Assembly: GCF_000482365.1 (NCBI RefSeq)
Contig: NZ_AXVC01000021.1
Span: 1 to 64,000, forward strand
Reading direction: 5' to 3'
DNA length: 64,000 nucleotides
DNA from: Porphyromonas uenonis DSM 23387 = JCM 13868
Lineage (GTDB): Bacteria; Bacteroidota; Bacteroidia; Bacteroidales; Porphyromonadaceae
Shown: positions 36,502 to 51,016 of the stretch, piece by piece
Position numbering within the stretch: position 1 is the first letter of the stretch
How the letters are laid out: every line of letters begins with the position of its first letter
Translations under genes and position numbers: made by a program
Notes under the pieces: generated by a model
Databases searched by the model: none
Told to the model about the DNA's origin: nothing
Seen by the model: only the letters and a program-made list of their open reading frames with translations

Positions 36502-36830
36502 CGGGTCGCCCTCTCCGCTCGGTATACTCTTTCAGGAAGAGGACATCCCTTCGTATGAAACTCCAATTTCTTACCCATGAAACTTTAGTTTCACCCAAGT
36601 GGTACTGATAGTTAGCTCATTTCTATAGGATGACCTACGCGATGCACCCTCAAAAAGCTTTTATCGGACAGCAATACGTCCGAAGGTTTATTTCGTTCCT
36701 TCATGGAGAATCGTCGTTTGCTCCTGAGAAAGTCTTAGGGCAACCCGAAAAAGGAACGGGGCGCTAAGGTCTTCAAAGTGGTCGGCACGGACGGATGATA
36801 GTAATCGTCAGACTACCCAGTTTGCAGCGT
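36502..36830. other. Intergenic region with a GAAACT palindrome
   Basis: After comEC the sequence holds a perfect inverted repeat GAAACT-TT-AGTTTC at 36579-36592, plus related GAAAC/TTTC half-sites nearby, a weak relative of the family B arrays. No gene or clear terminator was recognised. Confidence 0.45.
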
Positions 36831-36913
36831 CTAGTCCCTATTATGGACTAGTCAACGGTGAAGCAAATACCTATTCTTGGGTATTTACAGAGGCAAGCAG
36901 TGCTGTACCTTTG
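36831..36913 (+). promoter_or_regulatory. Promoter and putative operators of the TonB receptor locus
   Basis: TACCTTTG at 36906-36913 is the -7 box, 24 nt before the chosen ATG. Upstream lie two inverted repeats: CTAGTCC with GGACTAG (36831-36851, 7-nt spacer) and AAATACC with GGTATTT (36865-36886, 8-nt spacer). The second occupies the region expected for the -33 element, and no good -33 sequence is visible. Regulation by a dimeric regulator is inference. Confidence 0.55.
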
Positions 36914-36936: not shown

Positions 36937-39744
36937 ATGAAGAAGTCCATCATTCGCCTACTCTTGCTCTGCCTGCTGCTCCCCATACTGTCGCAGATGC
37001 TCTATGGTCAGGGCGCTCGTCATGCCCTCACGGGTGTGGTGTGCGATGCGACTTCGGGTGAGCCGATAGCCTACGCTCTGGTGGCTCTCTCGGCTGAGGG
37101 GCACAAAGATGTCGTGACTTACACGGACGATGATGGGCGCTTTGCCTTTCAGTCAGTACTAGCGGGGCGATACCGTCTACAGGTGCGCTACGCAGGTCTG
37201 CGCAAGGAGCAGACGATCACATTGCAGCGAGACCAATACTTGCGTATCCCCTTTAAGCTGGAGCAGGTACTAGGCGAGGTGGTTGTGACGGCACAGGAGG
37301 GACGGCACCTGACCAGTTCCTCGACGATTGAGCGGGCGGCCATTGATCACCTGCAGCCAAGTAGCTTCTCCGACCTGACGGCACTACTGCCTGGAGGTAA
37401 AAGTAGCATCCCTAATATGGGCGGGGTCAACAACCTCTTGCTCCGTGAGACAGGCACGATCAATGTGCAGGGCAATAAGACGAACAACCAAGACTACGCC
37501 ATCAGTTCGCTGGGGACCCTCTTTATGGTAGATGGGGCTCCGCTCAATACGGATGCGGATATGCAGTACACGGCTTCCTCCTCGGGCTCGCTCCTCGGTG
37601 CTGGCAAGGTCAATGTGAATCGAGGTGTGGATATGCGTACGCTGCAGACGGACAATATAGAGCGGGTTGAGTTCATCCGTGGTATCCCCTCCGTAGAGTA
37701 TGGCAATATAACCTCTGGCGTAGTACTGGTGCATCGTAAGCGACAAGCTTCGCCAGTGCAGAGTCGCTTTAAGGTAGATGGCTACAGTAAGTTGGTCTCT
37801 GTGGAGAAAGGCTTTGCCCTCACACCCTCCCAGCATCATATCCTCAATGGGGATGTGAGCTATCTAGATGCTAAGCCCGACCCGCGTGTCCCCTTTGAGA
37901 CTTACAGGCGACTGACTGGTTCGCTACGCTACCACGGCACGAGTAGTAATCAGGCACATCGCTGGGAGGTGAGCGGAGACTATACGGGTAGCTTTGACAA
38001 GAACAAGATTGACCCCGATCTCTCCTACGGACGCACCGACGAGTACCTCTCAGACTACAATCGCATAGCTCTCACCTCACGATATAGCTATACCCCGACA
38101 GAGCGTACGGGAGGCTTGCAGCGAGTGGAGCTGACCCTTTCAGCGGCTCAGCAGTTTGACTACCTACACCAACGCCGACTGGTGGCTCCAGACCGTATGA
38201 CGATAACTCCTACCGGTGTCGAGGCGGGAGAGCATCCAGCTACATTGATCGGACGAGAGTACGTGGCGGACTATGTGAGTGATGGCAAGCCTCTGACACT
38301 CTTTGCCAAGGGGCAGACACTATATAATATAGAGTGGGGAAAAGCTTCGCATAGGTTGAAGGGGGGCTTTAACTATGACCTATCCAAAAACTTCGGTCGC
38401 GGGCAGGTCTACGATCTCTCTTATCCACTCTTTCCCAAAGCATGGGACACTCGTCCACGTCCTTACTACCAGATTCCAGCTCTGCAACAGCTAGCACTCT
38501 ATGCGGAGGACCTATACACGCAACCTCTCGGAGCTCATACGCTCCAGCTAGAGGCGGGCGTGCGTCTCTCTATGCTCCTAGGACTCGCTCCGCAGTACAC
38601 GCTGAGCTATAAGCCTTACCTGGATCCTCGTGTCAACCTGCGCTGGAGCTTGCCCGCCTGGGAGCTCTGGTCACGAGACCTCAAGCTCTCACTCGATGCG
38701 GGATGGGGGTTGACGACACGTATGCCTACGCTCAACTATCTCTACCCTGACCCACGCTACGTAGACATAACTCAGCTGGCTTACTACGACATCAACGCTC
38801 CCTATGAGCGTAGCCTATACTACGTCCGCACTTACATAGAGGACGCGACAAACTACAAGCTACGCGCCACGCGCAACCAGAAGCTGGATCTACGTCTCTC
38901 TGCCGAGTGGGGGCGCAATAGGATCTCTGTGAGCTACTTCAATGAGCTGATGACTACGGGCTTTAGATACCGCTCCACGGCTCAGGTCTACAGCTACAAT
39001 AAGTATGACGCCTCGGCTATTGACTATAATAAGTTGACGGAACAGCCCGACATCTCTACCATCCCCTACACTCCAGCAGCTCGTATCGAGTCGACGAGTC
39101 GCCCTGAGAATGGTAGCATGATCCGCAAAGAGGGCGTGGAGCTTCAACTTATGACGGAGCGTATCCCTGTGATCAATACCAGTCTGATCCTAGGGGGTGC
39201 ATGGTTTCGCTCTACCTACTCGAATAGTGTACCGCTCTACTACGCAGTCTCTGGAGTCTATGGCAATGTAATCCTCTCAGATCAGTACCTGGGTCTCTAC
39301 AACTGGCAGGATGGTTCGGAGAATCAGTCGCTCTCGACCAACCTACTCTTTGACACACAGATCCCACAGTGGGGACTTATCCTGACGACTGCCGTAGAGA
39401 GTACCTGGCTGGTCTCTCGTCGTCGCCTTCCCCAGGATGGTCGACCGATAGCTTACCTAGATGTGCACGATGGTAAGCTACACCCCTACACGGACGAGTC
39501 GGAGCGAGATACCTATCTGCAGCATCTCTTCATACGCTACAGCGATACGCTCTTTAAGCCGAGCCGCATTCCCCTAGCTCTTGGGGTTAATCTCAAGGTG
39601 TCTAAGCAGCTGGGCAAGCTCTTTACGCTATCTCTTTTTGCCAACAACGTCATAGACTACCTACCCGACTACAAGGTGGGTACCGCAACGCTCAGACGTA
39701 CTGCCACACCGTACTTTGGTATGGAGCTTCGCATTAAGATATAA
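36937..39744 (+). CDS. TonB-dependent outer-membrane receptor
   Basis: A 935-residue outer-membrane protein. A signal peptide (residues ~1-25) is followed by a carboxypeptidase-regulatory-like domain (LTGVVCDATSGEPIAYALVA), a plug (LGEVVVTAQEGRHLTSSSTI, IERVEFIRGIPSVEYGNITS) and a beta-barrel ending FGMELRIKI. The -7 box precedes the ATG at 36937, so longer upstream starts are rejected. Followed by DUF4876 lipoproteins rather than a SusD, so it is not a polysaccharide-utilisation pair. The ligand is unknown; the locus suggests a metal complex. Confidence 0.93.
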   Translation: MKKSIIRLLLLCLLLPILSQMLYGQGARHALTGVVCDATSGEPIAYALVALSAEGHKDVVTYTDDDGRFAFQSVLAGRYRLQVRYAGLRKEQTITLQRDQYLRIPFKLEQVLGEVVVTAQEGRHLTSSSTIERAAIDHLQPSSFSDLTALLPGGKSSIPNMGGVNNLLLRETGTINVQGNKTNNQDYAISSLGTLFMVDGAPLNTDADMQYTASSSGSLLGAGKVNVNRGVDMRTLQTDNIERVEFIRGIPSVEYGNITSGVVLVHRKRQASPVQSRFKVDGYSKLVSVEKGFALTPSQHHILNGDVSYLDAKPDPRVPFETYRRLTGSLRYHGTSSNQAHRWEVSGDYTGSFDKNKIDPDLSYGRTDEYLSDYNRIALTSRYSYTPTERTGGLQRVELTLSAAQQFDYLHQRRLVAPDRMTITPTGVEAGEHPATLIGREYVADYVSDGKPLTLFAKGQTLYNIEWGKASHRLKGGFNYDLSKNFGRGQVYDLSYPLFPKAWDTRPRPYYQIPALQQLALYAEDLYTQPLGAHTLQLEAGVRLSMLLGLAPQYTLSYKPYLDPRVNLRWSLPAWELWSRDLKLSLDAGWGLTTRMPTLNYLYPDPRYVDITQLAYYDINAPYERSLYYVRTYIEDATNYKLRATRNQKLDLRLSAEWGRNRISVSYFNELMTTGFRYRSTAQVYSYNKYDASAIDYNKLTEQPDISTIPYTPAARIESTSRPENGSMIRKEGVELQLMTERIPVINTSLILGGAWFRSTYSNSVPLYYAVSGVYGNVILSDQYLGLYNWQDGSENQSLSTNLLFDTQIPQWGLILTTAVESTWLVSRRRLPQDGRPIAYLDVHDGKLHPYTDESERDTYLQHLFIRYSDTLFKPSRIPLALGVNLKVSKQLGKLFTLSLFANNVIDYLPDYKVGTATLRRTATPYFGMELRIKI

Positions 39745-39765
39745 TCAACTCAACAATAGATTTCT

Positions 39766-41076
39766 ATGAAACGATTACTTTACATACTGCTTTTACCAGC
39801 GCTCCTAGTCGCTGTGACCTCTTGTCGCCCTGACCCTGTCACGCCAGACAACCCCAAGGAGCAAAAGTCCATCGCTTGTCTCTTCGAGCGCACACTGCCC
39901 GAGGATGTCACGGACTTGACAATACAAGAGGAGCTACTCACGCTACACAACATCACCACAGGTCAAGACGTGGAGCATAAGACGCTAGAAGGAGTCAAGC
40001 TCGCTCCTGGGCTGTACAACCTAAACTACACAGCAAACTGTCGCTATAAGCTCAAAGGGGTCTCAATGGAAGGCCGACTGGTCGCACAGATTGAGAATCT
40101 GGAGGTAACTGACCAAACGACCGATCCACTCAAGCTACGCCTAGAGCTACGCATCGTGCCTACGGTTCAGGACTTCGTCATCCAAGAGATCTTCTTTACT
40201 GGCACACAGACTACGGCAGGCAAGCCTTACAATGGGACTTCGTACGTCATCCTATACAACGGAACGGACAAGGTCCTTTATGCTGATGGGATCGCCTTTT
40301 GCGAGTCTGAGTTTAACCCCGCTATCAAGCAGGATTATAAGCCAGACCTGAGACAGACGGACTTTGTGCCACACGCCGTCTATGTAGTCCCAGGCAGTGG
40401 TAAGGAACATCCCGTGAAGCCTGGAGAGCGACTGATCCTCTGCGATATAGGTATTGATCATAAGGCAACCAATCCAAACGCTTTTGACCTCTCTAAGGCT
40501 AACTTCGAGTGGTATGACGAGTCTAGTGTACCCACACACCAAGACTTTGACAGTCCCACGGTGCCGAATCTAGACAAGTGGTACTGCTTCACGAGAACCT
40601 TCTTTATCCTCCATGACCGAGGGCTGGCTTCTTATGTGATCGCTCGTATGCCTGTCACTAAGGAGGCATGGCTCAAAGACTATGTCTACGACTATTCATA
40701 CGTCTTCGTTGGTACAGGCAATGAGGCCAAGAGGTCTTCCTATCGCATCCCTCTAGACTGGGTTATCGATGGTGTGAACTGTAGCGTCGAGGCTATGCAC
40801 AAGTGGACGATCCTGCCCGAGCGGATAGATGCGGGCTATACTCACTGTGGTAAGGAGGATCGCGATCCAAATCGCTTTTTCCACAGCGTACGCCGTAAGT
40901 ACCTAGGCAAGGATGCTGAGGGGCGGATGATTCTGCAGGATACTAATAACTCGTCTGAGGACTTCAATCCGATGGTCACTCCCTCGCTCATTGAGGAGCA
41001 AGGCTCCGCTATCAATGCTAAGGGTACGCCCTGCACGACTAAGACCTATGATGGTGTCGTGCCTATGGAGAAGTAA
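39766..41076 (+). CDS. DUF4876 family lipoprotein, copy 1
   Basis: A 436-residue lipoprotein (lipobox Cys20, TSCRPDP). It has an N-terminal beta-sandwich-like region, then a larger C-terminal domain with conserved DFVIQEIFFTGTQTTAGK, YVILYNGTDKVLYADGIAFC, VVPGSGKE and DTNNSSEDFNPM. The second copy at 41366 is collinear over the full length and roughly two thirds identical by eye, so the two arose by duplication. The function of DUF4876 is unknown; it follows TonB receptors in Bacteroidales. 21 nt after the receptor gene. Confidence 0.9.
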   Translation: MKRLLYILLLPALLVAVTSCRPDPVTPDNPKEQKSIACLFERTLPEDVTDLTIQEELLTLHNITTGQDVEHKTLEGVKLAPGLYNLNYTANCRYKLKGVSMEGRLVAQIENLEVTDQTTDPLKLRLELRIVPTVQDFVIQEIFFTGTQTTAGKPYNGTSYVILYNGTDKVLYADGIAFCESEFNPAIKQDYKPDLRQTDFVPHAVYVVPGSGKEHPVKPGERLILCDIGIDHKATNPNAFDLSKANFEWYDESSVPTHQDFDSPTVPNLDKWYCFTRTFFILHDRGLASYVIARMPVTKEAWLKDYVYDYSYVFVGTGNEAKRSSYRIPLDWVIDGVNCSVEAMHKWTILPERIDAGYTHCGKEDRDPNRFFHSVRRKYLGKDAEGRMILQDTNNSSEDFNPMVTPSLIEEQGSAINAKGTPCTTKTYDGVVPMEK

Positions 41077-41093
41077 AGTCTCTTCGATAGATT

Positions 41094-41369
41094 ATGGTGC
41101 ATCATCCTTCTATATGTCTTAGTAGATCTCTTGCGCTCTTACTCTGTCTCCTAGCTGTGCTCACGGGCTCGCTCTATGGAGAGCCATTAGATTTTGGAGC
41201 TAAGGGTTTTTGGGATAGTCAAGGTACTCTTCGCGCGCCTTGGCTTTTGGGTACAGTCTTCGCCATGGGTTCCAGACTACATCAGGAGGATTTGCTGCCA
41301 CGCCTTACTGTGGTCTGGAGCTACACATCAAAATATACCCTTCGTCACACTCCAACTAGCTCTTTATGA
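41094..41369 (+). pseudogene. Internally deleted remnant of a DUF6850 barrel gene
   Basis: The 91-codon frame begins with a signal-peptide segment like that of the intact DUF6850 gene at 42714 (MVHHP versus MVIHF, ending SLYG versus NLYG). It then jumps directly to LDFGAKGFWDSQGT, RAPW and SRLHQEDLLP, which match residues ~370-420 of the intact protein (LEFGAKGFWDSQDT, RTPW, YRLHEEDLLP). Similarity stops soon after. About 350 codons of barrel are missing, and the end is frame-shifted or replaced. The stop overlaps the start of the second DUF4876 gene. Confidence 0.85.
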
Positions 41370-42676
41370 ATCGTCTCTTTCGACTACTCCTCATCATATC
41401 TGCCGTGATAGCGGTCAGCTCATGCCGCCCTGAGCATGGCCGAGCTCCGCTACCTACGGTCTCGTGCGCCTTCACTACGCAGCTCCCCGAGGGACTGACA
41501 GATCTCTCTGTACTGGGCGAGGAGGTGCACTTGACGAATAAAGCAACGGGAGTCGACACCCGCTACAATTCGCTAGATAGTATCGCTGTTATCGTCGGGC
41601 TGTACGATATAGCCTATACTGTGGAGTGTACCTTCACGCTCCATGGGATACAGATGCGAGGACGGCTCGTCTCTCAGCTCGCTGATGTGAGCCTTACAGA
41701 GCAAAAAGACAATAAAGCTGTGCAGCTTCTCTTGCCCCTGAGGGTCGTGCCACAGGTAGAGGACTTTGTGATACAGGAGATCTTCTTCACAGGGACACTG
41801 ACTCCCGCAGGCAAGCAGTATCATGGCGACAACTATGTCGTGCTTTACAACGGCACAGATCATGTACTATATGCCGACGGGATAGCTTTCTGTGAGAGTC
41901 GCTTTGTCTCCACAATGAAGTTTGACTACAAGCCTGACATCCGCCATGAAGCGATGGCGGTGCAGGCGGTCTATGTAGTGCCTGGCAGTGGTAAAGATGT
42001 CGCTATACCTCCTGGCGGAAGGCTCATACTCTGTGATACAGGGATAGACCATAAGACAAACAATCCCAACTCCTTCGATCTCTCTAAGGCAAACTTTGAG
42101 TGGTATGATGTCTCTACCGTGCCTGCTCATCAAGACTTCGACAGCCCCTTGGTGCCTAACCTAGACAAGTGGTTTTGCTATACGAAGTCCTTCTTTGTCC
42201 TTCACAATAGAGGCTTCAGATCGTATGTCATAGCACGTGTGCCTATTGATAAGGAGAGCTACCTGAAGGACTATGTCTACAAGTTCACTTGGGTCTTGAC
42301 ACATGCTGGGGTCAGCTACGATATGTCTGGCTCTTGCTATAAGATCCCCAACGACTGGATCCTCGATGGTGTCAACTGTAGTGTCGAGGCAAATATCCAG
42401 TGGACGATACTACCTGAGACGATAGACGCTGGCTATACAAACTGTGGCAAGGCTGATCATCAGAAGGATCGGTACTTTCACTCTGTACGTCGCAAATTCC
42501 TCGGATTAGATGCGCTAGGTAATCCAATCCTGCAGGATACAAACAACTCAACTGAAGACTTTAACCCGATGGTCACGCCAGCTCTCGTAGAGGAGCAAGG
42601 CTCAGCTATTGACGCCAAGGGCACACCCTGCACGACCAAGACCTATGATGGTGTGACACCTATGGTCGCTAAGTAA
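41366..42676 (+). CDS. DUF4876 family lipoprotein, copy 2
   Basis: A 436-residue lipoprotein (lipobox Cys19, VSSCRPEHG), paralogous to copy 1 along its whole length (DFVIQEIFFTGTLTPAGK, YNGTDHVLYADGIAFCES, KTNNPNSFDLSKANFEWYD, DTNNSTEDFNPMVTPA). The N-terminal ~120 residues are more diverged than the C-terminal domain. Start ATG overlaps the remnant's stop. It is followed by the intact DUF6850 gene, so each DUF4876 gene once had its own barrel partner. Confidence 0.9.
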   Translation: MNRLFRLLLIISAVIAVSSCRPEHGRAPLPTVSCAFTTQLPEGLTDLSVLGEEVHLTNKATGVDTRYNSLDSIAVIVGLYDIAYTVECTFTLHGIQMRGRLVSQLADVSLTEQKDNKAVQLLLPLRVVPQVEDFVIQEIFFTGTLTPAGKQYHGDNYVVLYNGTDHVLYADGIAFCESRFVSTMKFDYKPDIRHEAMAVQAVYVVPGSGKDVAIPPGGRLILCDTGIDHKTNNPNSFDLSKANFEWYDVSTVPAHQDFDSPLVPNLDKWFCYTKSFFVLHNRGFRSYVIARVPIDKESYLKDYVYKFTWVLTHAGVSYDMSGSCYKIPNDWILDGVNCSVEANIQWTILPETIDAGYTNCGKADHQKDRYFHSVRRKFLGLDALGNPILQDTNNSTEDFNPMVTPALVEEQGSAIDAKGTPCTTKTYDGVTPMVAK

Positions 42677-42713
42677 ACATTTCGAGGACTCTATGCTACT
42701 AACAACTAGACCT

Positions 42714-44294
42714 ATGGTCATACACTTCAGTCCTCTGGCTCTAGCCTGGACACTGTTGAGTCTCTTCATTGGCAACCTATATGGGCAGCAGGTCGAGACT
42801 CAGGCTATCCCTGCAGATTCTGCAGATACATCCACTACGCTTCGCACGCTACTGGAGCAAAGACGACCAGGTTATGACTGTTCGGTATCACCAGCGGTGT
42901 CGCCACTCTACTTCTTCTCAGAGCGTGGTAGTCGTACAGACATTTCGCTGGGCGGAGCTGTGCGTCGAGATGGGGGCGAGACGATGGTTCCACAACTAGG
43001 CAAGCAGGACATAGATGGATCGGTGCATATCGAGAGCGCTTTGCGTCAGCGCAACAACTTCGCTTGGGGTGCTGCCTCCTACACTTATCGTGCTACGGAG
43101 GGGATACGTTTCAACGAGACAACCGACTACCAGCTCCTCGCACCTTACGTTATGGGTGACACGGCATACACGGCTCGTCTGCATCAAGATCTTTACACCT
43201 TTGGGGCGGGTACAGTACATCGCCTCGGCAATTGGCTCCTCTCTTTGAAAGCGGACTACCGTGCCACCTTTGCCTACCGCACGCAAGACCCTCGTCCTCG
43301 CAATCTGGCGACGCTCCTAGAGGGGCAGCTAGGCGTCGGCTATCAGTTTGCCGACTATGCCCTCGCCATAGCAGGTACGCTAGGTCGCTACAAGCAAAAC
43401 AATCAGGTAGACTTCCTGAGTGAGGTCGGGGTGGCTAGTGAATATCATTTTACTGGTGTCGGGGGAGACTACTATCGCTTTAGAGGCAATAACACGTCCC
43501 TCTTTTATCAAGGGATATCGTATGGACTCTCGCTCGGCGTAACCCCTACGGGTCAAGCGCGTCAAGGCTTCTATGCTCTGGCAGCGTGGCATCTGCTGAC
43601 GACCGACCGAATCATACGCGAGCTCAACAACCTGCCCCTCTCGACACTTCATCTGCACACGCTAGATCTGCAGGCTGGATACACCGCCCGCTCAGCACGA
43701 CTGGGACGTTGGGGCGTTGCGCTTTACACCCAAGGCGACATACGTAGAGGGGCCGTCCACCTCTTCGGAGATCCTAAGGGGAATCTTTACCCACGCATAG
43801 CCACCGAGCGGTCATACTATGGGCAGACCTTAGAGTTTGGAGCTAAAGGCTTTTGGGATAGTCAGGACACTCCTCGCACGCCTTGGTCGTGGGGCATATC
43901 CACCTCGCTCGGCTATCGACTACATGAGGAGGACCTGCTGCCCCAAGCAGAGCGACTCTTCTACCATCTAGGCGGGACATTGGCTCCGTATGTTAGCTTT
44001 CATCGCGGGCAGTACTTTGTCTCTCTGACACCTACCTATAGTATCTGGGCACAGACGGGACACCCTTCGCTACAGTTAGCACCTCAGCATCAGCCTATAC
44101 CTACTTATGCTGAGACACTGGAGCGAGCCTATCAGATAGCTAGCTCCACGCAGATGACCTACGGGCTCTCTATGACTCACGGCTATCAGCTTAGCAGTCG
44201 CTATGCGCTGTGGCTCTCACTAGACTACCTCCATACGCAGACCAAGCTGTGTGGTAGCGACTACGGAGCTATACGTTGTGGCATCTCATTCTAA
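42714..44294 (+). CDS. DUF6850-type outer-membrane beta-barrel protein
   Basis: A 526-residue exported protein: signal peptide to about residue 25 (ending NLYGQQ), then long amphipathic strands with alternating aromatic residues (SLKADYRATFAYRTQ, FSLGVTPTG-like turns) and a terminal strand ending CGISF. This resembles an outer-membrane barrel. Start ATG 42714 corresponds to the remnant's start; ATG 42693 would add seven residues. It is paired with DUF4876 in other Bacteroidales as far as I recall; the function is unknown. Confidence 0.82.
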   Translation: MVIHFSPLALAWTLLSLFIGNLYGQQVETQAIPADSADTSTTLRTLLEQRRPGYDCSVSPAVSPLYFFSERGSRTDISLGGAVRRDGGETMVPQLGKQDIDGSVHIESALRQRNNFAWGAASYTYRATEGIRFNETTDYQLLAPYVMGDTAYTARLHQDLYTFGAGTVHRLGNWLLSLKADYRATFAYRTQDPRPRNLATLLEGQLGVGYQFADYALAIAGTLGRYKQNNQVDFLSEVGVASEYHFTGVGGDYYRFRGNNTSLFYQGISYGLSLGVTPTGQARQGFYALAAWHLLTTDRIIRELNNLPLSTLHLHTLDLQAGYTARSARLGRWGVALYTQGDIRRGAVHLFGDPKGNLYPRIATERSYYGQTLEFGAKGFWDSQDTPRTPWSWGISTSLGYRLHEEDLLPQAERLFYHLGGTLAPYVSFHRGQYFVSLTPTYSIWAQTGHPSLQLAPQHQPIPTYAETLERAYQIASSTQMTYGLSMTHGYQLSSRYALWLSLDYLHTQTKLCGSDYGAIRCGISF

Positions 44295-44334
44295 TTGTAA
44301 AACCAAATAACCAAACAAACTAAATATCATCAGT

Positions 44335-46776
44335 ATGCGAAAACAACTACCAGTATTACTTATGCTCCTCACGCTCTTCTGTACAGCGAGTGTGACGATA
44401 GCACAGACTCCAACTGAGGGAGTAGCAAAGAACTTCCTCTGGTACCGTCTTGTCGCCAATAGTGTAGAGCGTATCCAAGTACCTCAGCAAGTGGTCGCCT
44501 CAATGGACGGCAATCTCTTTGCGAGCAATATGTTCTACAGTAAGGAGCGCGCTGACTCTAGCTCAGTCTTCAACTATGATGCACCCAACGTTGCAGACAA
44601 GGCGGTCTCCTTCGGTGATGATGGAGAGGCTGCCAATGGCAATGTCGCTATCTCCATCTACAAGATGACTCCAGAGGGCAAGCTTCTCTGGCACATCTAC
44701 AACAGCCGAGGAGATGTTCACTCCAATGTCCACTGTATCACAGCAACTCCAGACGGGGGCTTTGTGACCATCTTGATGGTTCGCGATGCTAAGTCCAAGT
44801 CCAAGACCGATGTCGACATCTTGCGCCTTGTTCAGGCTGACGGCAAGCCCTACAACATAGAGATGAAGTCTCGATTTGTCGGAGCGAATGAAGATGCCTC
44901 TGCAGGGGCTACACACCGCAAGGTCATGCCTATCCTTGTCAAGGTTAGTGCTACGGGACAGATTGAGTATCACAAGGCTTTTGAAGTAGATCATAAACCA
45001 ATGCCTGATGCGACGTACTATAGTTATGGCACACCTACAGGTTGTGACTTCAAGGGCACAACTATAGACCCCGAGGGCAATGTCTATGTCTGTGGCTTCG
45101 TCCGCACGGCCATAACCATCGGCGAGACTACTATCAAGGCAAAGAACAATGTCGGATGGAATGGAGATTCACAAAAAGATATGGGAGACTTCTTCATCCT
45201 CAAGTTTGACAACAAGGGCAATCTCGTCAAGACGCTTACCGAGCAGGGAGCCCCCATCGGACGCTCTATGCTCTGTGTCATCAAGTATCAAGATGGTAAG
45301 CTCTATGCTACGGGTCGCTTTACAGGAACTAAGGAAAAGACCCCAATCACCATCGATGGCAAGCAACTCATCCCCAGCGATAAGGAGAGCCTCGTCACAC
45401 TCTGCCTAGACACAGATCTAAAGGTCTCGTGGATCTCTCAGATTGACGTCAAGGCTGTACCCGAGCACCCCTGGACGAAGGTCTTTGTCGATGGTGTGGC
45501 TGTCGGCAAGGACAAGGTCTACATAGCAGGACGCTGTGCTGGAGCTCTCGTTGATGCCGAGGGGAATGTAATCCTCGAGCAAAAGCTCAAGCAGCACAGA
45601 GGCTATGCTCTAGCGCTAGACAAAGCTACGGGAAAGCCCAATGCGGAGTGGCATACGCTACTTCCAGAGAAGGGAATCTCCAACTGTACGGCTATCTCCA
45701 CGCAAGGAGATCGTGTCATCCTGCATGCCTACGCTCTATTCGGACAGACTTATTACCGAGTGCTGGACCTCAACCTCTCTGAGGGCTCTATACAAGACTA
45801 TCCTACGGTAAGCAAGGCTGCCGTCTCATTCGGTGGCGATGTAGTCGCCAATAGCTATGTAGCTACATCACGTTGCCGCAATAGTGCTAAGCTCCTTACG
45901 ACCGAGGGCTATAAGGAGATGACATACAAGGGCTGGTTTAGCCTCTTTATTGCTCACAAGCTTCCCTTCCCCTCAGTATCAGCTAGCTGCAAGGCTCTCC
46001 ACCTATCAGAGGGCAAGGGTGCTCTACAAGTCTTAGCGTCAGATCTGACAGATCCGATCCAGGTGACATGCTCTGGCGAAGGCTTTACGGCACAGCTCAA
46101 GGAGCTACCTGCTACGGGTGGAGCTCTCGAGATACAGTTCAAGACAGCAGTCACCAAGACGCCCGAAGAGCGTATCGGCAAGCTTACCCTCACCTCTGGC
46201 GGTGCTAGCTATGAGGTCTACCTCTATGCAATGACTGAGACAGAGCAGTACATCAAGGCATCTCAGAGCGAGATCAATTTCTCGATGATACCTGTCGGTG
46301 AGCATAAGTCTGTTGATCTGACGGTCACACAGAAGAACCTCACGAACGCTATCACCTGTACGATCGAGGGTGAGGGTGCTAAGTACTACTCAGTGGACAA
46401 GAGCGAGATCGCCATCTCCAATGAGCCAGCTACCCTCAAGGTAACCTACACACCTGACAAGACCATCGCAGCTAATGCCAAGGCGACAGCTCAGCTCGTC
46501 CTAACCTCTGGCGATGTCAAGACGATTGTCACACTATCTGGTCAGAGCAATACAGCTATTGAAGAGGTCGCAGCAACCAAGCTCTCTATTGCTACTGCTG
46601 CTGGTACGCTCTACGTACATAGCGATGTGGCTCGTCCAGTAGCTATCTACACGTCAGCTGGTGAGATGGTTGCACAGCGAATACTCTCTGGAGATATGGA
46701 GATCTCACTACCTGCTGGTATCTACTTCATCCAGACGGATCGTGAGACCTATCGTGTCTACATCCCCGCTATCTAA
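44335..46776 (+). CDS. Secreted protein with type IX (Por) C-terminal sorting domain
   Basis: An 813-residue protein with a signal peptide (cleavage near AQTP, residue ~24). Residues ~25-560 contain propeller-like repeats (TPDGGFVTIL, DPEGNVYVCGFVR, DGKLYATGRF, GKDKVYIAGRCAG). Two Ig-like/BACON-type repeats follow (~565-740, VSASCKALHLSEG and IKASQSEINFSMI). The last ~65 residues are a sorting domain (GTLYVHSD, VAIYTSAGEMV, ISLPAGIYFIQTD). It should be exported by the type IX system and anchored or released at the surface. A terminator follows. Its role in the locus is unknown. Confidence 0.85.
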   Translation: MRKQLPVLLMLLTLFCTASVTIAQTPTEGVAKNFLWYRLVANSVERIQVPQQVVASMDGNLFASNMFYSKERADSSSVFNYDAPNVADKAVSFGDDGEAANGNVAISIYKMTPEGKLLWHIYNSRGDVHSNVHCITATPDGGFVTILMVRDAKSKSKTDVDILRLVQADGKPYNIEMKSRFVGANEDASAGATHRKVMPILVKVSATGQIEYHKAFEVDHKPMPDATYYSYGTPTGCDFKGTTIDPEGNVYVCGFVRTAITIGETTIKAKNNVGWNGDSQKDMGDFFILKFDNKGNLVKTLTEQGAPIGRSMLCVIKYQDGKLYATGRFTGTKEKTPITIDGKQLIPSDKESLVTLCLDTDLKVSWISQIDVKAVPEHPWTKVFVDGVAVGKDKVYIAGRCAGALVDAEGNVILEQKLKQHRGYALALDKATGKPNAEWHTLLPEKGISNCTAISTQGDRVILHAYALFGQTYYRVLDLNLSEGSIQDYPTVSKAAVSFGGDVVANSYVATSRCRNSAKLLTTEGYKEMTYKGWFSLFIAHKLPFPSVSASCKALHLSEGKGALQVLASDLTDPIQVTCSGEGFTAQLKELPATGGALEIQFKTAVTKTPEERIGKLTLTSGGASYEVYLYAMTETEQYIKASQSEINFSMIPVGEHKSVDLTVTQKNLTNAITCTIEGEGAKYYSVDKSEIAISNEPATLKVTYTPDKTIAANAKATAQLVLTSGDVKTIVTLSGQSNTAIEEVAATKLSIATAAGTLYVHSDVARPVAIYTSAGEMVAQRILSGDMEISLPAGIYFIQTDRETYRVYIPAI

Positions 46777-46784
46777 TCTGTTTC

Positions 46785-46828
46785 GTCCCTCTTCTCCCTA
46801 TGTGGAGGAGAGGGACTATCCTCTTTTA
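46785..46828 (+). terminator. Terminator after the sorting-domain protein
   Basis: A 13-bp stem (46785-46797 with 46804-46816, one G-T pair), a 6-nt loop, then TATCCTCTTTT. It divides the locus into two transcription units or an attenuated one; no TAnnTTTG box was seen before the next gene. Confidence 0.8.
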
Positions 46829-46897
46829 TAAGCAAATCTGTGAAGCTCGCACTTCACACGCTACTATCTCAAAGCATAGTTTTCACACCCAAGCAGT

Positions 46898-47485
46898 ATG
46901 AACAACAAACTATCTCTTGTGCTCCTCGCAGCACTACTCTCCATCGCCCTCATCGGGTGCAATAAGCAAAAGCAAGATCAGACCACAACCACAGAGACGG
47001 AGGCTCCGACCTATATGGAGGTGGACGCACTCCTCGCCTCTGCCGATAGTCTCGTTGGTCAGACGGTTACCGTGCAGGGCATCTGCACCCACCTCTGCAA
47101 GCATGGAGCTAAGAAAGCCTTCCTCATGGGTAGCGACGACACCAAGGTGATCCGCGCTGAGGCTAGTGAGGAGATGGGCGCCTTTGCTCAGGAGTGTATC
47201 AACAGCATAGTCACCGTCACAGGACAGCTTGTCGAGGATCGTATCGACGAGGCTTATCTGCAAAACTGGGAGGAGCAGCTCAAAGCTCAAGCCGCCAAAG
47301 AGCATGGCGAGGGTAAGGCAGGCTGCGCCAATGAGAAGAAGGCTCGTGGCGAAACGGCTGACACGCCTGAGGCCCGTATCGCAGACTTTCGCAAGCAGAT
47401 CGCTGAGCGCGAAGCTCAGGAGGGCAAGGCATACCTTTCCTTTTACCACATCAATGCTACAAGCTATAAGATAGAGCAGCAGTAA
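46898..47485 (+). CDS. OB-fold-like lipoprotein with C-x-H-x-x-C motif
   Basis: A 195-residue lipoprotein (lipobox Cys21, LIGCNKQ). Residues ~40-115 read as a small OB-type beta barrel (SLVGQTVTVQGICTHLCKHG, KAFLMGSDD, NSIVTVTGQLVED). The cluster CTHLCKHG could bind metal or heme. The C-terminal part is charged and helical, with a further cysteine (KAGCANEKK). I do not recognise a named family. It is followed 26 nt later by the PepSY-type membrane protein, a pairing that suggests metal or heme handling. Confidence 0.75.
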   Translation: MNNKLSLVLLAALLSIALIGCNKQKQDQTTTTETEAPTYMEVDALLASADSLVGQTVTVQGICTHLCKHGAKKAFLMGSDDTKVIRAEASEEMGAFAQECINSIVTVTGQLVEDRIDEAYLQNWEEQLKAQAAKEHGEGKAGCANEKKARGETADTPEARIADFRKQIAEREAQEGKAYLSFYHINATSYKIEQQ

Positions 47486-47511
47486 CCCACATCTGGAACT
47501 GACAAGACTCT

Positions 47512-48093
47512 ATGAAAGTAAACTTCAAGAAAGTAGGCAGGAGCGTGCGTCGCTGGAGTAGATTACTACACCGTGACCTCTCCTACCTACTTGCTACGCT
47601 TATATTCATCTATGCCCTATCGGGTCTCTACATGAACCACCGAGACTCGATCAATCCACACTACATCATCACCCAGCGGGAGTATCAGATCCCGCTAGAA
47701 GAGCTACAAGCTGCTGGACGCCTGGATGCACCAGCCGTCCGTAAGATCCTAGACGAGATAGACCTGTCGGGCAGCTATACCAAGCACTACTACCCAGACG
47801 ATCATACGCTCAAAGTATTCCTCAAGGGACGTGCCACCCTACTCCTCGACACCTCAACGGGGGTAGCCGTCTACGAGTCGATCGAGCGACGCCCGCTCAT
47901 CAGCTCTATGACACGCCTACACTACAATCCAGGGCGCTGGTGGACGATCGTCGCTGATGTGCTAGCCATCGGACTCATACTCATCACCCTCACGGGACTA
48001 CTCATCGTGCCTGGGCGGCGTGGGCTCATAGGTCGTGGTGGCATCCTCCTACTGATCGGGCTGGCGGTACCACTGCTCTTCCTCTTCCTATAA
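47512..48093 (+). CDS. PepSY-associated membrane protein
   Basis: A 193-residue inner-membrane protein. An N-terminal helix (LHRDLSYLLATLIFIYALSG, ~20-40) with the conserved LHRD motif is followed by a PepSY-like periplasmic domain (~55-125). Two C-terminal helices (~145-165 and ~175-192) complete it, including LHYNPGRWW. PepSY-associated helices occur in siderophore and iron reductases next to TonB receptors. Catalysis is not shown here. Confidence 0.85.
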   Translation: MKVNFKKVGRSVRRWSRLLHRDLSYLLATLIFIYALSGLYMNHRDSINPHYIITQREYQIPLEELQAAGRLDAPAVRKILDEIDLSGSYTKHYYPDDHTLKVFLKGRATLLLDTSTGVAVYESIERRPLISSMTRLHYNPGRWWTIVADVLAIGLILITLTGLLIVPGRRGLIGRGGILLLIGLAVPLLFLFL

Positions 48094-48129
48094 ATGTAGT
48101 CGGCCCATCCCTTATATCACTTAACTAAC

Positions 48130-49014
48130 ATGGACAACTTAATCGAGTGTCACAACCTGACCCACTACTACGGCAAGCGACTGATCTACCGTGATCTATC
48201 CTTTGCCGTGCCTCGTGGTCGCATCCTCGGTCTGCTTGGCAAGAACGGTACCGGCAAGACCACCACAATCAATATCCTCAGTGGCTTTCTCCGCCCTAAG
48301 TCGGGTGTCTGTCGTATCCTAGGCGAAGATATCACCCGCATGCCTGACCGACTGAGACAAGACATCGGGCTGCTCATCGAGGGGCACGTCCAGTATAGCT
48401 TTATGACTATACGGCAGATAGAGCGCTTCTACGCACCTTTCTATCCGAAGTGGCGTAGGGAGGCTTACTACGAGTTGATGGAGCTACTCAAGGTCACCGA
48501 GAGGCAGCACCTCAGTCGCATGTCTTGTGGCCAGCGCTCGCAGGTCGCTCTCGGACTGCTCCTAGCGCAAAACCCCAAGCTACTCATCCTCGATGACTTC
48601 TCAATGGGACTAGACCCAGGCTATCGAAGGCTTTTTGTAGACTACCTGCATCACTATGCCAAGGAGCAGGGCACCACAATCTTCCTCACCTCCCACATTA
48701 TCCAGGATATGGAGCGCCTGATCGATGACTGCATCATCATGGACTACGGCTCTATACTCCTGCAGCGCCCAGTCGCTGAGATCCTAAACGAGGGGCGCCT
48801 CTACAGATGCACCCTCACGGACGATCGTCCTCTCCCTGAGATCGACGGACTGTACCACTTCGAGGCGCACCACAGACGTGGGGAGTGCTACTCATTCCTT
48901 CCACTGCCAGAGGTCGCTGAGCGACTCACTCAGGCTGGTGTATCCTACCAAGATCTCACAGCACACGAGACAACGCTCGAAGATGCCTTCATAGGACTTA
49001 CCGGTAAGTATTAA
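48130..49014 (+). CDS. ABC transporter ATPase with Walker B Asp-Asp
   Basis: A 294-residue ATPase: Walker A GLLGKNGTGKTTT near residues 36-48, Q-loop area YSFMTIRQ, signature MSCGQRSQVALGLLLAQ, Walker B LLILDDFSMGLDPG, and switch His in TSHIIQD. The catalytic Glu after Walker B is Asp, which in other ABC proteins slows hydrolysis. The ABC-2 permease (49025) and DUF4857 (49703) genes follow at 10 and 6 nt, so the three form an operon. Confidence 0.9.
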   Translation: MDNLIECHNLTHYYGKRLIYRDLSFAVPRGRILGLLGKNGTGKTTTINILSGFLRPKSGVCRILGEDITRMPDRLRQDIGLLIEGHVQYSFMTIRQIERFYAPFYPKWRREAYYELMELLKVTERQHLSRMSCGQRSQVALGLLLAQNPKLLILDDFSMGLDPGYRRLFVDYLHHYAKEQGTTIFLTSHIIQDMERLIDDCIIMDYGSILLQRPVAEILNEGRLYRCTLTDDRPLPEIDGLYHFEAHHRRGECYSFLPLPEVAERLTQAGVSYQDLTAHETTLEDAFIGLTGKY

Positions 49015-49024
49015 CGCTATCTAT

Positions 49025-49696
49025 ATGTTTGCCTCTATAATATATAAGGAGTGGCTCAAGCTCCGACTATACGCACTGCTATCGACACTCGTCGCACTAG
49101 CCGTACCGCTCTACGGTGTCATACGCATACATCGAGCCATCGCACTACAAGGCGCTGACCATATCTGGCTCGTGATGATACAGAAGGGAGTAGTCTTCGT
49201 AGAGAGTATGCGCTACGTACCCCTCATCCTAGGCTTGCTCTGTGCCATCGCTCAGTTTGCGCCAGAGCTCTCTCGTCGTAGCCTCAAGCTCACCCTGCAC
49301 CTACCCCAGTCACCACTCCGCTCGACCTACCAGATGCTCGCCTGCGGGGTGACACTACTGCTATGGCACACCCTATTATATTTGGGTGTCCTCTTCTTCG
49401 GACTGCAAGGAGTCTTAGCTTACGAACTCCTCGCCTATGTCCTCTCCGCTACATTGCCCTGGATCTTGGCGGGCTTCCTCGGCTACCTCCTGATGAGCTG
49501 GATACTCCTAGAGCCCACTTGGCGTAGACGCATCCTCTACACCCTAGTCGCTGTACTCTTGATACGCATCAACTTCATCACCCCCACAGCAGGAGCTTAC
49601 GCACCCTTCCTGCCTACGCTACTTATCTACACCATCCTCTCCTCGACACTGGTATGGCTCTCTGTGAGTCGCTTCAAAGAGGGGAGACAAGACTAG
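49025..49696 (+). CDS. ABC-2-type permease
   Basis: A 223-residue membrane protein with about six hydrophobic segments (around residues 17-35, 58-78, 105-128, 130-150, 175-190 and 195-215). It begins with the short amphipathic FASIIYKEWLKLRLY typical of ABC-2 subunits. It is partner of the ATPase at 48130. Confidence 0.85.
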   Translation: MFASIIYKEWLKLRLYALLSTLVALAVPLYGVIRIHRAIALQGADHIWLVMIQKGVVFVESMRYVPLILGLLCAIAQFAPELSRRSLKLTLHLPQSPLRSTYQMLACGVTLLLWHTLLYLGVLFFGLQGVLAYELLAYVLSATLPWILAGFLGYLLMSWILLEPTWRRRILYTLVAVLLIRINFITPTAGAYAPFLPTLLIYTILSSTLVWLSVSRFKEGRQD

Positions 49697-49702
49697 ACTA
49701 CT

Positions 49703-50737
49703 ATGAAGCGCATAGCCACAATACTCCTATACATCACCGTAGCACTACTCATCATCTGGCAGATCCCCTGGTGGTACAACTACCTCCGAGCCGATGCGAG
49801 CCGTGAGCCATTCACCATCTACAGTCAGCTCCTAGGCGACTTCATCATCACAGATCACGACGAGGGTACGATGACCTACCGTAGTGGTCAGGGTGGACAG
49901 TATAGTCGTGAGGAGGTCGATAGCCTGCTCCCCACCTTCTACTACCGTCAGCTCCTGACCGATGGTCGCCTACCCGACACGCTCTATGGAGAGGCGGTGA
50001 CCCCGCAGCTTATACAGCGGGGTGCTGTCACCTTCCGCTGTTCGCCACGCACCCTCGCTGCGCCTGCCGTGGCGCTCTACCCACTCCTAGAGAGTGCCTC
50101 ACGAAGAGTCAAGCTAGAGATGCCCGAAGATCTCTTTCGCATCACAGGGCAAGCGATCGAGTTCGTCGATATGAAGAGCAATCAGACCGACAAGGCGAAA
50201 AGTGCTCTCTATACGAAGCTCTTTCAGGAGAAAGGCTTCGCCTTCCCCGCCCAGCGCGTAGCAGGCAATGCCACTGCGCAAAAGGAATATGACAACGGCT
50301 ACCTCCTCATTGATCAGCGTGGTAAGCTCTTTCACCTCAAGCAAATGGCTGGCAAGCCCTACCTGCGAGCTATTGACCTGCCCGAGGGCGTGGAGGCTGC
50401 CGAGGCCTTCGTCTGGGAGCTGCCGAGTCGCCGACATATCGGTCTCATCTCTACCCGAGATCATCAGCTCTATCTGATCGAGCGTGAGGGCTATCGCCCC
50501 TGTCGCCTAGGGATCCCCTCATGGGATCCGCACCGTGAGGATCTCACCATCATCGGCAACGACCTAGACAGCTACACCCTCAAGGTCTCCACTGCCGATG
50601 CCACAAGCTACTATGCGCTAGATGCGACGGACTACACGCTCCTGAACACACTACAAGTAGATCACCCTGAGCGGACCATCCCAGGGCTGCACTTCACCTC
50701 ACGCCTAGACAGCTGGGTGAAGCCTCGACTAGACTAA
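49703..50737 (+). CDS. DUF4857 family protein
   Basis: A 344-residue protein with one N-terminal membrane helix (residues ~5-25) and a large extracytoplasmic domain (WYNYLRADASREPFTIYSQ, then YRSGQGGQYSREEVDSLLP and PTFYYRQLLTDGRLPD). This matches my memory of DUF4857, a Bacteroidales family encoded with an ABC exporter and PepSY protein. A weak propeller-like second half follows. The function is unknown; co-occurrence suggests a component of the exporter. Confidence 0.8.
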   Translation: MKRIATILLYITVALLIIWQIPWWYNYLRADASREPFTIYSQLLGDFIITDHDEGTMTYRSGQGGQYSREEVDSLLPTFYYRQLLTDGRLPDTLYGEAVTPQLIQRGAVTFRCSPRTLAAPAVALYPLLESASRRVKLEMPEDLFRITGQAIEFVDMKSNQTDKAKSALYTKLFQEKGFAFPAQRVAGNATAQKEYDNGYLLIDQRGKLFHLKQMAGKPYLRAIDLPEGVEAAEAFVWELPSRRHIGLISTRDHQLYLIEREGYRPCRLGIPSWDPHREDLTIIGNDLDSYTLKVSTADATSYYALDATDYTLLNTLQVDHPERTIPGLHFTSRLDSWVKPRLD

Positions 50738-50770: not shown

Positions 50771-51016
50771 GAGTGACTACCGATCCTCTCTGATTACACC
50801 TTCCTCCGGAGGAATTGAATTCCTACCTAGGAATTTCCCAAATAGCTACCTAGGAATTTACCCAATTCCTACCTAGGAAATCAAAAATTCTTCGGAGGAA
50901 TCAAATGAAACTTCGGAAGAATCAAAAAATAAGTCCGAAGAATTGGCCATTTCCTAGGTAGCAAATCAAAAATATCTACGGAGGAATTTTGGAAATTCCT
51001 AGGTAGGAAATCGGAG
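50771..51016. repeat. Family C array upstream of the DUF5606 gene
   Basis: Near-identical in order and length to 13614-13840: GATCCTCTCTGATTAC, then TTCCTACCTAGGAA-type palindromes, CTTCGGAGGAATC and TTCCTAGGTAGGAA. It has one extra ATCTACGGAGGAATT unit near the right end. Confidence 0.85.

Follow-up and report, generated by a model that had tools for sequence, protein, structure and literature searches.

A candidate iron-starvation operon for reductive ferric-chelate uptake in Porphyromonas uenonis

The first 64,000 nucleotides of contig NZ_AXVC01000021.1 from Porphyromonas uenonis DSM 23387 = JCM 13868 (hereafter the window) carry a ten-gene cluster at positions 36937-50737 that is probably an iron-starvation operon by which iron is taken up reductively from a ferric chelate, a siderophore-type molecule being the most likely one. 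The iron regulation of the operon is strongly supported. Taken together, an operator shared with other iron genes, the published low-iron induction of the orthologous locus of Bacteroides thetaiotaomicron and the co-occurrence of the gene families support a role in iron uptake. A preliminary description of the locus had named absence of co-occurrence and of shared regulation as the outcome that would speak against a common system, and the opposite was found on both counts. Iron supply decides the competition of gut and oral Bacteroidales with hosts or rivals, and in B. thetaiotaomicron this operon belongs to the loci that respond strongly to low iron, yet it was left with no assigned function and labelled a fimbrillin locus. 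The present analysis provides its anatomy, its regulon and a likely mechanism.

Operator, promoter and low-iron induction

In the window and in most relatives the promoter is covered by a 20-bp palindrome, AATACCTANNNNTAGGTATT, which a motif search in 67 promoter regions returned as the palindrome AATACCtAnnnnTaGGTATT overlapping the -33 position. A TAnnTTTG element lies 21 nt 3' of the operator in most relatives, the spacing being 20 nt in the window, where the two elements are placed as follows:

36866..36885, no strand assigned: apparent iron-starvation operator, palindrome AATACCTATTCTTGGGTATT (position weight matrix score 23.5 bits; common to most of the 67 homologous promoters)
36906..36913, + strand: Bacteroidetes -7 promoter element TACCTTTG (TAnnTTTG, identified from the sequence)

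The receptor gene starts at the ATG at 36937; a longer frame from TTG 36877 runs inside the promoter. With a matrix built from 67 sites, the window's own site among them, the runner-up site in the 64 kb scored 12.0 bits and the maximum of 100 dinucleotide shuffles was 18.5. Motif widths of 17-21 gave 768-880 versus 498-548 for shuffles, these controls not being at exactly 20 bp. In five genomes, the combined pattern of operator, spacer and -7 element occurred 57 times versus six for the reversed control; the pattern fixes a 21-nt spacer and therefore misses the window's own site. Just 5' of the operator, at 36830-36850, there is also a perfect 7-bp inverted repeat (CTAGTCC-CTATTAT-GGACTAG).

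The function of the palindrome was suggested by the genes found 3' of its other sites. In the window genome these are a flavodoxin gene, a locus encoding a TonB-dependent receptor (TBDR), HmuY and a PepSY protein, a TetR-MMPL locus, an ATP-binding cassette (ABC) exporter, a hemerythrin-regulator pair and another TBDR, while in B. fragilis the sites mark a TBDR-HmuY-PepSY locus, a TBDR-PepSY locus and further TBDRs. Iron regulation has been reported for flavodoxin, hmu, the MMPL/TetR locus and the hemerythrin-regulator pair (PMC10434189). Since the same site precedes all four in the window genome, which the operon thereby joins in one apparent regulon, the palindrome appears to be an iron-starvation operator. 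Not every site is explained, since some lie 5' of genes for secreted or hypothetical proteins; four operator-like sites of this kind in the same genome (L235, L241, L242, L243) may mark new iron-regulated genes. As to the repressor, no DtxR N-domain was found in the genome, whereas two Fur-family proteins exceeded the cut-off, which led to rejection of a DtxR-type repressor and makes Fur the likelier candidate. The Porphyromonas Fur (PgFur) binds the hmu promoter and not the E. coli Fur box (PMC6613475), a behaviour that fits a box unlike that of E. coli. No published Bacteroidales iron box, with the present sequence or another, was found in the literature searched. The operator offers a handle on this long-standing gap, a Porphyromonas Fur that does not bind the E. 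coli box.

The link to measured regulation comes from B. faecis, in which one locus (L130) encodes a receptor, DUF4876, DUF6850, a fimbrillin-like protein, a lipoprotein with an HxCxH motif and an oligonucleotide/oligosaccharide-binding (OB) fold, PepSY, ABC ATPase, permease and DUF4857. Judged by order and family from this sister species, this is the same nine-gene series as BT3633-BT3625 of B. thetaiotaomicron, which is up 37-128-fold in low iron by RNA-seq and 14-19-fold in colitis (PMC10434189). In that study BT3625-3633 was labelled a putative fimbrillin locus and was found only in B. thetaiotaomicron among three species compared; in the survey of 80 loci described below, what varies is the fimbrillin-like gene, and the locus as a whole is widespread. 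The P. gingivalis genes PG1019-1022 (DUF4876 and TBDR) are up 21-215-fold in low iron (PMC10434189). Within the operon of the window, a terminator-like hairpin at 46785-46816 divides the surface part of the gene series from its inner-membrane part; four relatives retain the hairpin, in which one base pair has changed in a compensatory way from C-G to U-A. At the corresponding point the B. thetaiotaomicron fold-changes drop from 98-128x to 37-65x (PMC10434189), and the hairpin could lower downstream expression; B. faecis has only 33 nt at this position, and the drop in B. thetaiotaomicron may have a different cause.

Gene content, conservation and modularity

The ten collinear genes of the preliminary description are all present on the + strand according to the list of open reading frames (ORFs) and Pfam, and they are separated by gaps of 6-40 bp with a single exception of 121 bp. 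The features, with structure models from AlphaFold2 (AF2) and their predicted local distance difference test (pLDDT) values, are:

36937..39744, + strand: TonB-dependent receptor with CarboxypepD_reg domain (Pfam Plug 5e-9, CarboxypepD_reg 4e-14)
39766..41076, + strand: DUF4876 lipoprotein a, predicted surface-exposed (Pfam 2e-66; acidic residues following the lipid Cys)
41094..41369, + strand: DUF6850 remnant, a signal peptide fused to a C-proximal fragment (phmmer 1.6e-15; translation)
41366..42676, + strand: DUF4876 lipoprotein b, predicted surface-exposed (Pfam 1e-69; distant match to solved structure 4q1z, E 4e-12)
42693..44294, + strand: DUF6850 protein, predicted outer-membrane beta-barrel (Pfam 1e-76)
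44335..46776, + strand: secreted propeller-like protein, accessory, with a probable type-IX sorting domain (domain scores below cut-off)
46785..46816, + strand: terminator-like hairpin, 13-bp stem
46898..47485, + strand: OB-fold lipoprotein with invariant HxCxH, predicted periplasm-facing (AF2 pLDDT 81; Foldseek OB folds, which carry no functional meaning)
47512..48093, + strand: PepSY_TM_like_2 inner-membrane protein with three transmembrane (TM) helices, probable periplasmic ferric reductase (Pfam 1e-15)
48130..49014, + strand: ABC ATPase (Pfam ABC_tran; nearest solved relatives of ABCA type)
49025..49696, + strand: ABC-2-like permease, no Pfam family
49703..50737, + strand: DUF4857, N-terminal TM anchor and periplasmic propeller-like domain (Pfam 1e-103; AF2 pLDDT 90.5; Foldseek propellers at low TM-scores of 0.2-0.34)

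Further 3', at 50794-51012, short palindromic repeats of the CCTACCTAGGAATT and CTTCGGAGGAAT types cluster in direct and inverted orientation.

A scan of named genomes with a permease alignment yielded 80 named Bacteroidales loci in which the order recurs: TonB receptor, DUF4876, DUF6850, in some cases the secreted protein, HxCxH lipoprotein, PepSY, ABC ATPase, permease and DUF4857. The ABC ATPase was present in all 80, the permease in 79, DUF4857 in 78, the HxCxH lipoprotein in 74, the receptor and DUF4876 in 70 each, PepSY in 63, DUF6850 in 59 and the secreted protein in 12. In 149 Bacteroidales genomes, DUF4857 was found in 20, DUF4876 in 26 and both in 19 (p ~ 3e-17), and all 24 genomes with DUF6850 above cut-off had DUF4876 (p 1e-25). 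The co-occurrence survey proposed in the preliminary description thus came out clearly in favour of a common system, and these statistics together with the recurrent order rule out chance clustering. The parts travel as three modules, namely receptor-DUF4876-DUF6850, lipoprotein-PepSY and ABC-permease-DUF4857. In some related Porphyromonas genomes (L058, L061, L062) the receptor module stands alone at the corresponding locus. Outside the class Bacteroidia, two loci (L086, L088) associate ABC-permease-DUF4857 with M28 and M16 peptidases, a 4Fe-4S membrane protein and a lipoprotein-PepSY pair.

The receptor module of the window carries the trace of a duplication. Between the two DUF4876 genes lies a decayed, internally deleted DUF6850 copy of 91 codons, which is shared with P. 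uenonis 60-3 (L057/L124), the nearest named genome (98% permease identity). Three other Porphyromonas loci showed no such remnant and have one DUF4876 and an intact DUF6850. The remnant and its distribution indicate that the DUF4876-DUF6850 module was duplicated and that one DUF6850 then decayed. A second locus with TBDR, DUF4876 and a DUF6850 match (L065, contig C3) exists in the window genome, with an operator of its own scoring 20.7 bits.

Predictions of localization differ between the two lipoprotein families. Acidic residues directly follow the lipid Cys in 67 of 71 DUF4876 proteins versus 3 of 55 HxCxH lipoproteins. According to the published lipoprotein surface-export signal (PMC5080379), this pattern predicts DUF4876 on the surface and the HxCxH lipoprotein facing the periplasm. 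Like outer-membrane barrels, 50 of 57 DUF6850 homologues have Phe as their last residue. The secreted protein had been proposed as a capture component with a type-IX sorting domain. Its homologues do share the same C-terminal pattern, but its scores stay below the cut-offs (Por_Secre_tail 14.7 vs 23 bits; DUF6383 22.8 vs 23.7) and its presence in 12 loci makes it accessory. Searches of solved structures gave no matches for DUF6850, the secreted protein, the HxCxH lipoprotein, the PepSY protein or the permease.

The invariant motif of the OB-fold lipoprotein is H65-x-C67-x-H69, conserved in 109-110 of 110 close relatives. It replaces the C-x-H-x-x-C previously put forward as the metal-type motif, the first Cys of which occurs in 93 of the 110 relatives and in 4 of 21 stand-alone copies. 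The PepSY protein exceeds the Pfam cut-offs (PF16357, 58.3 vs 27 bits; PF03929, 36 vs 28.8) and has invariant H20, H43 and H137. Helix positions would put H43 and H137 at one membrane face, where one heme could be held between them, and H20 at the other. The lipoprotein and PepSY genes adjoin almost wherever they are seen: in the present operon, as a pair standing alone, directly after FeoA-FeoB-FeoB in one genome (L077) and beside a 4Fe-4S NapH-like membrane protein in L086. The HxCxH lipoprotein occurs in 151 of 295 Bacteroidales. Weak matches to the lipoprotein model were also seen in an ORF just 5' of a NuoG-like gene (L081, L082, L085, L094). The PepSY relatives FoxB, XusC and HiuB act, or are proposed to act, as reductases of ferrisiderophores (PMC13038864, PMC13142918, PMC13001220). 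Together with the contexts of the pair, these relatives suggest periplasmic reduction of Fe(III) and entry of Fe(II) by FeoB, a protein that the window genome encodes.

The ABC ATPase is nearest to ABCA proteins and more distant from NosF (9e-22). The permease had no Pfam match over cut-off, and its sequence has an ABC-2 appearance, so that the module looks export-type (ABC-2/type V), unlike known iron importers. A propeller fold of DUF4857 is only suggested by the models; many relatives have two extra C-terminal helices that the window copy lacks.

Proposed mechanism and rival explanations

In the pathway that we infer (substrate, reductase activity, coupling to Feo in this genome, role of the ABC module and identity of the repressor included), surface DUF4876 lipoproteins, with the secreted type-IX protein where present, would deliver the ligand to the TonB receptor, which would import the ferric chelate, DUF6850 acting as an accessory outer-membrane barrel. 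Fe(III) would then be reduced in the periplasm by the HxCxH lipoprotein together with the PepSY protein, and the Fe(II) so released would enter through FeoB. The ABC ATPase-permease-DUF4857 module might clear or recycle the stripped ligand, which is our preferred guess for its role. The promoter would be silenced through the 20-bp operator by a metal-dependent repressor, for which a Fur-family protein is the likeliest candidate. A more general proposal, with two points that may be new, can be made, although only tentatively and with less than even confidence: that AATACCTANNNNTAGGTATT over the -33 element is the Bacteroidales iron-starvation operator, bound by a Fur-family repressor at a box other than that of E. 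coli, and that the HxCxH lipoprotein and PepSY protein make up a new periplasmic ferric reductase of two proteins, which about half of Bacteroidales have as a unit on its own and which has here been drawn into a receptor-ABC operon.

Several points weigh against the ferric-chelate reading. The ligand is only presumed to be of the siderophore type, and the induction figures come from orthologous loci such as that of B. thetaiotaomicron, not from this species. No FecCD-type permease is present in the locus, the combination of such a permease with a periplasmic binding protein that marks Fec/Btu-type iron importers is missing, and the direction of the ABC module is read from family resemblance. 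With three conserved His and not the four of two FoxB-like bis-His heme sites, the two-heme FoxB mechanism is not guaranteed; for HiuB, too, only one His is reported at the lower heme (PMC13001220). The lipoprotein-PepSY pair is not specific to this locus, since it stands alone, outside receptor operons, in 19 of 20 sampled second-tier loci (L104-L123). Its link to Feo comes from the single genome of L077, with no Feo beside the stand-alone pair in 20 further loci, and Feo linkage as a general rule was rejected.

The same parts could be arranged differently, with the receptor and DUF4876 binding heme or porphyrin and the PepSY/HxCxH pair handling heme iron in the periplasm. This is unlikely, but has an appreciable chance, given the close ties of the genus to heme, the presence of the DUF4876 gene among the most hemin-repressed genes of P. 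gingivalis (PMC10470040) and the operator's marking of the TBDR-HmuY-PepSY locus as well. That locus is nevertheless separate, with its own PepSY gene in the same genome, Pfam found neither HmuY nor an HmuS/CobN-like or any further known heme protein in the operon, and hemin regulation can reflect iron supply. Of the metal, heme or siderophore chemistry envisaged in the preliminary description, iron uptake is therefore supported by the co-occurrence, the operator and the B. thetaiotaomicron induction, with heme or a siderophore as its possible source, and the ABC part looks export-type.

Three further readings are improbable. The operon could be a copper system, with receptor and PepSY acting like CrtA/CrpH and the HxCxH lipoprotein, ABC and DUF4857 like NosL/NosF/NosY/NosD. 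CrpH is a PepSY protein linked to copper (PMC13038864), the ATPase is related to NosF and the Cys/His motif would suit Cu(I). However, the operon shares its operator with iron genes, expression of the orthologue rises on iron depletion, the ATPase has its nearer relatives among ABCA proteins and Pfam finds no NosD/NosL family match, leaving this reading a small chance. Slightly smaller still is that of an operon under iron control that secretes, through its ABC part, a chelator made by the cell itself and then retrieves it: the export-type transporter adjoins receptor and reductase, but no biosynthetic gene lies in the locus or its conserved neighbourhood. The least probable is synthesis and export of a fimbrillin or surface appendage, as proposed for BT3625-3633. 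The ABC module is export-type, and the B. faecis operon does have a fimbrillin-like gene (Mfa_like_1, 4e-44). That gene is absent from the window, where its position is occupied by the secreted protein; the parts that stay constant are the receptor, lipoproteins, PepSY and ABC. Reductive uptake of a ferric chelate thus stays the favoured explanation.

Comparison with known systems

The closest counterpart, BT3625-3633, shares the nine-gene series and the low-iron and colitis induction; the window adds a second DUF4876 and the DUF6850 remnant, and has the propeller-like protein instead of the fimbrillin-like one. PG1019-1022 of P. gingivalis (PMC10434189) is likewise an iron-induced TBDR with DUF4876, resembling the three-gene receptor module of L058, L061 and L062, and differs in being without PepSY, HxCxH lipoprotein and ABC-DUF4857, as read in these three loci and not in P. 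gingivalis. NosDFY-L also combines an ABC-2-type transporter with a periplasmic partner and a metal-motif lipoprotein, but the window operon is regulated by iron, not copper, and the lack of NosD/NosL matches in Pfam excludes membership of that system. Membership of HmuYR finds no HmuY match in the locus by Pfam.

In mechanism, the operon stands nearer to two PepSY systems. The iron-induced XusABC xenosiderophore system (PMC13142918) comprises a TonB receptor, a surface lipoprotein and a PepSY inner-membrane reductase. The receptor and PepSY protein have counterparts in the window, whereas Pfam finds no DUF4374 propeller lipoprotein (XusB) in the locus, which has DUF4876 instead and adds DUF6850, the HxCxH lipoprotein and ABC-DUF4857. 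HiuABC of Caulobacter (PMC13001220) similarly joins a TonB-dependent transporter, a PepSY protein and a partner protein, with Feo as the proposed entry route, the partner being a small membrane protein and not an OB-fold HxCxH lipoprotein. The operon is most readily understood as a system of the Xus/Hiu type that takes up ferric chelates reductively and has additional parts.

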